Source: a virus
Length of the DNA: 21,354 bases
Reading direction: 5' to 3' (one strand)
Virus record (IMG/VR): IMGVR_UViG_3300045999_012947
Span: 1-21,354 of that record
Below the pieces are notes generated by a model. It did not search any database, was not told the DNA's origin, and saw nothing but the letters and a program-made list of their open reading frames with translations. The position numbers and the translations under genes are program-made. Below are positions 4,391-5,497 of this stretch, in pieces; position 1 is the first letter of the stretch, and each line of letters starts with the position of its first letter.

Positions 4391-4401
4391 CCAATAAAAA
4401 A

Positions 4402-4430
4402 CCCGGTTTTTCAGATGCGGGAAAACCGGG
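4402..4430 (-). terminator. Rho-independent terminator of the tmRNA/tRNA unit
   Basis: Stem CCCGGTTTT / AAAACCGGG (9 bp, 11-nt loop), followed on the minus strand by TTTTTTA. It closes the leftward RNA unit just after the tmRNA coding piece and just before the next late promoter. Confidence 0.88.
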
Positions 4431-4443
4431 AAACCCCACTGCT

Positions 4444-4482
4444 TTAAGCAGCCATCCGCATTGGTGCGGCTTTTATATTTGC
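4444..4482 (-). other. tmRNA proteolysis-tag reading frame
   Basis: The resume codon GCA (4482-4480) starts ANIKAAPMRMAA followed by TAA (4446-4444). Counting the Ala brought by tmRNA, the tag would be AANIKAAPMRMAA. The C-terminal Ala-Ala end fits recognition by ClpXP-type proteases, as in E. coli (ends LAA). CCGCA-CCAA-TGCGG (4469-4456) forms a hairpin inside the tag, and the stop codon lies in the loop of CTGC-TTAAA-GCAG (4451-4439). Stop codons in such a loop are usual for tmRNA helix P5. Confidence 0.8.
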
Positions 4483-4564
4483 AACTGTTTATTTACGACA
4501 CTTGTTACCCGTGTCGGGTATCTCCTTCTTTCCTACTTTGCTCCAGTCGATGCCTTTCGGTCCC

Positions 4565-4661
4565 GTATTGATCTAAAGCCTAGGACTTTAGATCGTGCCC
4601 CTCTGCAGAGAGGACTTGTTTCGCCATTGCCAGAGGTTGCAGAGATTCTGGGTTAGGCTAA
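4565..4661 (-). other. Intervening segment of permuted tmRNA
   Basis: These 97 nt lie between the mature 3' end of the acceptor piece and the 5' end of the coding piece, and would be cut out after transcription. They hold a 9-bp hairpin, GATCTAAAG / CTTTAGATC (4594-4586 with 4578-4570), directly before the coding piece, and a second one, CTCTCTGCAGAG. The first hairpin could guide 5' end processing. Confidence 0.65.
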
Positions 4662-4726
4662 TGGAACCGAGGGGATTCGAACCCCTGTGCTGTAAGCATT
4701 TCTGTCCGAGATCAACAATACCAATA

Positions 4727-5374
4727 TTAATTATTTTTTTTCAAAAATACATGGTTGACACTATAATCACCGGTATTATGATGATATCCTGCATACCAAA
4801 TTATATGATGATTTGGAAAATATTTTTTAATATAATTTTCATCATAATTTCTATGCAATTCTATATCAATGTATTTTACAGTTTGTAAAAAAGTAGAATT
4901 TTCAATAATATTATACTCCCCTCCCTCTATGTCCATTTTTACAAAATCTATTGGTTTAAAATTAAAAAATTCTAATTCAAAAAGGTGAAAAGGCTCATCA
5001 GATTCAAAAAAATCACTACTAAAGTTATCTACTACAGTATAACCGCCAACATGAGAAAATGCCGGTTTTATTGCATTTTGATATTTTTTACCATAATGTA
5101 TACCACAATTTAAAAATACAAATTTATTTAAATTTTTTAATTTATTAAATAAATAATTAAAATTATCTTTTTGGGGTTCAAATAAATAACCTGTTTCTAT
5201 ACTAGGTATATTTTTTAACAAAACAAAAGACACACCACCCACATTTGCGCCTATATCAATAAAATTTTTTATATTTTCTTTTTTTAATATAGACGTAATA
5301 GTTTTAAAATAATCACCTTGTTCCCACTCATTTACACTATATTCCCAATGACTTTCTTGTGTTTCTGTTCCCAT
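4727..5374 (-). CDS. FkbM-family SAM-dependent methyltransferase
   Basis: 215 residues. The SAM-binding glycine loop is FIDIGANVGGVSFVLL (about 37-52), followed by the acidic strand end YLFEPQ (ribose-binding Glu), and the FkbM signature IDFVKMDIEGGEYNIIENS near residue 140-158. FkbM domains methylate sugar or polyketide hydroxyls; phage and bacterial copies are often linked to surface glycans. ATG 5374 has AAGG at Shine-Dalgarno distance, one of the few late genes here that keeps a leader. The late motif CTAAATA lies 17 nt upstream. The gene is very AT-rich and sits between tRNA-Tyr and the tmRNA, splitting an RNA block, so it looks like a later insertion. The substrate is unknown; a role in modifying phage or host glycan is a guess. 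Confidence 0.85.
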   Translation of the reverse strand: MGTETQESHWEYSVNEWEQGDYFKTITSILKKENIKNFIDIGANVGGVSFVLLKNIPSIETGYLFEPQKDNFNYLFNKLKNLNKFVFLNCGIHYGKKYQNAIKPAFSHVGGYTVVDNFSSDFFESDEPFHLFELEFFNFKPIDFVKMDIEGGEYNIIENSTFLQTVKYIDIELHRNYDENYIKKYFPNHHIIWYAGYHHNTGDYSVNHVFLKKNN

Positions 5375-5415: not shown

Positions 5416-5497
5416 TGCGAGCAGGAGGATTCGAACCTTCGTAGGCTATGCCATCTGATTTACAGTCAGACCTCGTTGACCACTTGAGTATACTCGC
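5416..5497 (-). tRNA. tRNA-Tyr (GUA)
   Basis: Acceptor GCGAGTA / TGCTCGC (one G-U), D arm CTC..GAG, anticodon arm TCTGA-CTGTAAA-TCAGA with anticodon GTA, and a long class-II variable arm (TGGCATAGCCTACG), as bacterial tRNA-Tyr has. T arm GAAGG-TTCGAAT-CCTCC has one A-C mismatch. The discriminator is A (5416) and CCA is not encoded. It lies 143 nt downstream of a good sigma70-type promoter. Confidence 0.9.

Follow-up and report, generated by a model that had tools for sequence, protein, structure and literature searches.

The 21,354-base window analysed here is a complete IMG/VR record. Its minus strand carries, at 4722-4396, a gene for a circularly permuted (two-piece) tmRNA. We consider it very probable, at about 93%, that this is an intact and selectively maintained gene of a T4-like phage that serves host-assisted ribosome rescue. 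The features of the gene are listed in Table 1.

Table 1. Features of the permuted tmRNA gene and the neighbouring tRNA gene in the window.
Feature	Position	Strand	Evidence
Acceptor piece (5' part of precursor): P2 strands, T arm, 3' acceptor strand, discriminator A	4662..4722	-	RF04321 match, covariation in 21 sequences
3' acceptor strand CGGUUCC and discriminator A	4662..4669	-	7/7 pairs with 4564-4558; U70 opposite G3 in 21/21
T stem-loop AGGGG-UUCGAAU-CCCCU	4670..4686	-	5/5 paired; both-side changes in 4/5 pairs among relatives
Intervening segment	4565..4661	-	Conserved fold of three hairpins
Coding piece; primary 3' end expected at terminator	4396..4564	-	Begins at 5' acceptor strand GGGACCG
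Inner P2 strand CUGGAGCA	4539..4546	-	Pairs with 4698-4690; both-side changes in 7/8 pairs
Outer P2	4722-4718 with 4521-4517	-	One compensated pair
PK1 stem CGACAC/GUGUCG, loop GGGUAACAA	4496..4516	-	Compensatory changes in the L154/L158 form
Tag reading frame GCA..UAA, ANIKAAPMRMAA	4444..4482	-	Same 12-codon frame in 34 distinct class 1 sequences
Hairpin CUGCU-UAA-AGCAG, stop codon in loop	4439..4451	-	One pair varies on both sides: U-A to C-G, G-C in relatives
3' pseudoknot GUGGG/CCCGC with CCCGGUUUU/AAAACCGGG	4396..4439	-	Direct alignment reading
tRNA-Tyr(GUA)	5416..5497	-	Upstream of tmRNA; directly before tmRNA in several relatives

Identification of the permuted tmRNA gene

A cmscan search of Rfam matched the permuted tmRNA model RF04321 to 4722-4444 of the minus strand with 63.7 bits (E 1.9e-10, gathering cut-off 47). 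The sequence-only reading had proposed Infernal with the alpha, cyano and beta models of Rfam and ARAGORN as a check. RF04321 exceeded its cut-off, but none of the clade models RF01849, RF01850 and RF01851 (alpha, beta and cyano) reached its gathering score in the window, and ARAGORN called four tRNAs there and no tmRNA gene. The best clade model was beta_tmRNA, with 30.1 bits against the 84 required, and other matches of the same clan were lower. Most relatives were called "tmRNA*" by ARAGORN, the label that this program uses for permuted genes.

One-piece tmRNAs of Pseudomonadota, which are ordinary genes with tags ANDEFYGEAVAAA and similar, also score 50-65 bits with RF04321. The score of 63.7 bits therefore proves a tmRNA and not its permutation, and the score alone was rejected as evidence of the permuted form. 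Because the score is not specific, permutation was judged by anatomy and covariation. On the minus strand the acceptor piece comes first, followed by the intervening segment and the coding piece (4722-4662, 4661-4565 and 4564-4396), and this order, together with the covarying acceptor stem and P2, indicates permutation. The two-piece phage tmRNA that the sequence-only reading had proposed, with the acceptor piece ahead of the coding piece and a removed segment at exactly 4565-4661, is thus confirmed by gene order, the RF04321 match, covariation and the ARAGORN calls in relatives.

Secondary structure and covariation

Covariation was scored over 41 pairs in 21 diverse, distinct family sequences from which the intervening segment had been removed. 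Across these pairs, 95.3% of cells are paired, and 20 of the 41 pairs change on both sides. Shuffles gave 7.5 +/- 1.8 such pairs and slid controls no more than 5. The acceptor stem CGGUUCC/GGGACCG is fully paired in the window copy (7/7) and carries G3-U70 and discriminator A. Four of its pairs are compensated among the relatives, and the Ala-identity pair G3-U70, which had been recognised from the sequence alone, is invariant in all 21 sequences. P2, also predicted to join the two pieces, links them by GGUAU/AUACC (outer) and UGCUUACAG/CUGGAGCA (inner), and seven of the eight pairs of its inner helix are compensated. The predicted PK1 pseudoknot has its stem in place, ending 13 nt ahead of the resume codon GCA.

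At the 3' side of the gene, the stop codon of the tag lies in a hairpin loop as expected. A terminator-like stem with a U run, likewise anticipated, occurs near 4422-4396 and in the window copy doubles as the second stem of the 3' pseudoknot, while some relatives have a separate terminator after this pseudoknot. Alignment reading shows several unrelated second stems at this place, including CCCGGUUUU/AAAACCGGG, GGUC/GACC, GACCA/UGGUC, AGCCCU/AGGGCU and GAUCC/GGAUC. CCA is not encoded in the window tmRNA, where A73 is followed by UUA, nor in the four tRNA genes of the window, implying that CCA is added by the host.

The intervening segment

Among 25 distinct sequences, the intervening segment (spacer) folds into hairpin 1, closed by GCC/GGC, followed by hairpins 2 and 3. 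Both sides change in 16 of 31 pairs (shuffles 9.4 +/- 1.5, slid controls at most 7), and the fold has a z of -3.33. Hairpins 1 and 2 have complementary loops, CUGCAA and UUGCAG, or CUGUAA and UUACAG in L157; in L324 the loops are CUGUAA and CAACAG, and the C-G core pair becomes U-A. The two loops likely kiss, as suggested by one compensated pair and three invariant ones.

Spacer content varies within the family. Hairpin 3 is missing in several spacers (L192, L197, L270, L277, L300 and L319), and L180-L183, L201, L054, L030, L343 and L334 have only 5-6 nt (UUCAC, CUUUAC) between discriminator A and G1. A second, unrelated spacer type was found in six sequences, with 165-173 nt in L327, L336, L356 and L362 and 122 nt in L199 and L200. 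It is predicted to form a multi-branched fold closed by GGUUAG/CUAACC (z -3.15 for L199), and no Rfam family reached gathering on it in L199 and L336. Permuted tmRNAs can thus have at this place a conserved fold, an unrelated insert or a mere 5-6 nt, a range that is relevant to the maturation of two-piece tmRNAs.

Several other readings of the spacer were examined. In 4565-4661, only the tmRNA and tRNA models of Rfam reached gathering, with chance-level matches at E<5 and no ribozyme or riboswitch family. The words AAUGGCGAA and CAAGUCC are presumably shared with HDV-like or twister-sister ribozymes. A ribozyme of either kind was rejected, as the strand order is unlike HDV and no Rfam match was obtained. 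A pseudoknot between the 5' GCCUA and the loop of hairpin 3 was rejected as well: it is 94.5% paired, but its covariation is weak (64 of 500 shuffles were as good for paired cells), and it competes with the GCC/GGC pairing that closes hairpin 1. The spacer was also considered as a free-standing element. The core motif search gave 100 contigs, among which no free copy was found, and the covariance search gave 17 matches; all that could be placed lie in family tmRNA genes, one of them at a contig end. The spacer most likely protects the precursor or holds the ends of the acceptor stem in place for RNase P and 3' processing; a role as ribozyme or sensor is a more remote possibility.

Two frame classes of the tag

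After removal of duplicates the family comprised 64 distinct sequences, of which 61 have a readable tag, and the stretch from tag codon 2 to the stop spans the same 36 nt in all 61. Class 1 (34/61), which includes the window, resumes at GCA and encodes 12 amino acids, with tags such as ANIKAAPMRMAA, ANLIANEMAMAA and AKIIANYMAMAA. Class 2 (27/61) has exactly one extra base between GC and codon 2, which puts the conserved tag of 12 codons in the +1 frame. Read from GCA, class 2 sequences meet a premature stop (AKNNC*) or lack the terminal AA; read one base later they give QKIIANELAMAA, QKLIAAPMAMAA and QTMIANQLAMAA, so that the predicted tags start with Q. Internal stops are absent from the shifted frame of 15 distinct class 2 tags and number 26 and 10 in the other two frames. 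No +2 class was present among the 61 readable tags.

The inserted base is the sole alignment column that fully separates the classes, and 28 sequences of class 1 share the same 24 bases before GCA with 20 of class 2. In E. coli tmRNA, the A86C mutation strongly induces +1 reading, in a study whose +1 reporter was made by a one-base insertion before the resume codon (PMC2481249). Class 2 tmRNAs look like this reporter, with one base inserted before the resume codon. At position -4, which corresponds to E. coli A86, C occurs in 5/27 class 2 and 0/34 class 1 sequences (p 0.014 if the sequences were independent, which they are not). These five phage sequences with a +1 tag resemble the A86C mutant; the other 22 of the 27 keep A there, unlike the mutant, and A86C is therefore not the whole explanation of class 2. 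How the ribosome finds the resume codon was an unanswered question in PMC2481249, attributed there mainly to a ligand that binds A86. The two frame classes provide a natural experiment on this choice, with nearly identical upstream regions, one inserted base and the same 12-codon tag. A few database tmRNAs with apparent tag frameshifts have been retained (PMC11915505), and cases like class 2 may therefore not be unique.

On a tree of the exonuclease, well-supported branches imply three or more changes of frame class, which could result from swapping of tmRNA genes by recombination. We incline slightly towards the following reading: essentially identical PK1-to-resume regions would serve two natural frame classes (GCA and G|CAA), the resume frame would not be set by the A86 equivalent alone, the +1 switch would have arisen several times or spread by recombination, and the compact kissing-hairpin spacer may guide or control maturation of the precursor. 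Transcriptional slippage on an A run, or sequencing error, in place of a shifted resume codon seems rather unlikely. About half of the 27 class 2 sequences have six A's after GC, and the run lengths of L193 and L352 differ by a single A, as slippage or error would predict; however, members lacking the run (GCAAATC, GCAAACC; L170, L324, L331, L337 and L353) keep the same +1 frame, and the 27 sequences come from many metagenomes with none in +2.

The tag had been described from the sequence alone as unlike host tags. This holds for the N-terminus, which lacks the ND/DN start of sampled alphaproteobacterial tags, and fails for the hydrophobic C-terminus, which resembles alphaproteobacterial tags: endings such as ...APM.MAA and ...RMAA occur in bacteria, and the sampled bacterial permuted tmRNAs have tags ANNNSAPVAMAA, ANDNNAPMAVAA and ANDNVASDLRMAA. 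It is conceivable, though speculative and on the unlikely side, that the tag additionally diverts rescued proteins from the ClpXP/SspB pathway of the host, either for recycling or so that phage proteins are spared, a role that would be compatible with rescue. The missing ND/DN start and the Q-starting tags predicted for class 2 would fit this role, but the C-terminal ..AA is kept, with similar endings in bacteria.

Relatives, carrier phages and gene neighbourhood

Two window proteins retrieved 152 viral loci, and 100 of the records were searched with RF04321, which exceeded its cut-off in 52 (34/50 and 18/50). Nine of these 52 (L184-L191 and L194) form a separate group of phage permuted tmRNAs. 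In this group, L184-L191 score 115-136 bits and encode CCA, and three tags were read, ANDESYALAA, ANDSRFALAA and ANDEKFALAA, which are beta-like (ANDE..ALAA-like). A search with an exact 32-base PK1 motif gave 67 stretches, many of them new. All 64 distinct members of the window's own group are from uncultured T4-like phages. The relatives encode T4-type prohead protease, TerL and major capsid proteins, by which the carrier phages are judged to be T4-like; the terminase and capsid protein of L384 share no more than about 50% and 54% identity with those of the isolates listed. No isolate among 50,697 phage records has similar tmRNA DNA, with matches limited to T-arm-sized stretches of 32-33 nt.

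No host was indicated by the searches: the PK1-resume motif had no match in the species genomes scanned, and the spacer model found nothing in 398 Pseudomonadota genomes and in 194 from the phylum to which a Melainabacteria MAG belongs, a weak test with 10-21 candidates scored per genome.

The motif [AT]AAATA occurs within 25 nt upstream of the tmRNA in 34 of the 64 members, compared with a background of 3.7%; TAAATA is a T4-late-promoter-like core, and the match upstream of the window copy is weak. A methyltransferase-like ORF (window 4727-5374, minus strand) lies between tRNA-Tyr and the tmRNA. The tRNA-Tyr gene adjoins the tmRNA in L156, L163, L169 and L193, and the ORF therefore looks like an insertion. 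Eight relatives (L157, L158, L162, L177, L196, L030, L345 and L365) have a tRNA-like cloverleaf of ~95 nt directly upstream of the tmRNA, with acceptor GCGUAGU/ACUACGC, T loop UGCAAGU and a long anticodon arm. It received no ARAGORN call in the loci scanned, and its anticodon loop seems to be CUA in some (a possible amber suppressor) and UGC in others.

A search for SmpB in 20 related contigs, 45-154 kb long, found none; of 14 control genomes, 10 were positive. The phage RNA must then compete for host SmpB, which could suit a decoy that binds SmpB or stalled ribosomes and blocks or diverts host trans-translation instead of rescuing. The tmRNA of phage DS6A, which has little beyond the tRNA-like domain, is similar to molecules with a demonstrated inhibitory effect on tmRNA (PMC11915505, PMC4131195). 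The complete tag frame, the stop codon and PK1 are conserved in the present family, and a decoy would not need them, making this reading improbable. Phages can pick up ssrA fragments (PMC9004378), but a functionless, degraded host fragment or pseudogene is scarcely credible for a gene whose helices are all intact in the window copy and covary in relatives, and whose tag frame is kept in 61/61 readable sequences across many contigs.

Proposed function

In the favoured reading, ribosome rescue with host assistance, the gene would be transcribed, probably late, into an RNA whose acceptor and coding pieces are joined on folding by P2 and the acceptor stem. The 97-nt intervening segment would be excised by host tRNA-processing enzymes, and the host would add CCA, charge the RNA with alanine through G3-U70 and supply SmpB. 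The two-piece RNA would then enter ribosomes stalled on broken or non-stop mRNA, and translation would resume at the GCA at 4482, adding the carried alanine and ANIKAAPMRMAA before the ribosome is released at UAA. Such tagging and rescue during infection would presumably benefit the phage.

Comparison with known two-piece tmRNAs

Permuted tmRNAs of phages have already been published, and the window gene is a new lineage of this kind. A survey of 402 phages, which described the two-piece tmRNA of Melnitz together with those of other marine and aquatic phages, reported 133 unique tmRNA structures, 53 of them two-piece as suggested by ARAGORN and 50 of these marine or aquatic (PMC9004378). As ARAGORN missed the window copy, surveys of phage tmRNAs based on it are suggested to undercount. 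No description of the structured spacer or the +1 class was found in the literature examined.

The alphaproteobacterial permuted tmRNA (Caulobacter type) shares with the window gene its gene order, its two pieces and a similar tag C-terminus, e.g., ANNNSAPVAMAA. The best 30 bacterial examples score 144-163 bits with RF04321 versus 63.7 for the window, however, and alpha_tmRNA stays below its cut-off on the window. The betaproteobacterial model RF01850 is the best of the three clade models and has a similar P2 and PK1 layout, but it falls short of its cut-off by the margin given above (30.1 versus 84 bits), and the window tag does not follow the ANDE..ALAA pattern. The bacterial sample examined contained no cyanobacterial permuted tmRNA above cut-off.

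Two further phages carry permuted tmRNA genes that are unannotated in their records. Pelagibacter phage HTVC008M (KC465899 145161-145370) has the tag ANFNEYALAA, and Synechococcus phage S-CRM01 (HQ615693 88361-88533) the tag ANNVVKFRRTAVTSLVAAL. With RF04321 scores of 90.6 and 82.5 bits, respectively, both resemble the window gene in being phage-borne and permuted, with host factors presumed, and differ from it in their tags and in having no kissing-hairpin spacer. S-CRM01, with an intervening segment of 6 nt and no encoded CCA, is similar to the short-spacer members of the window family.
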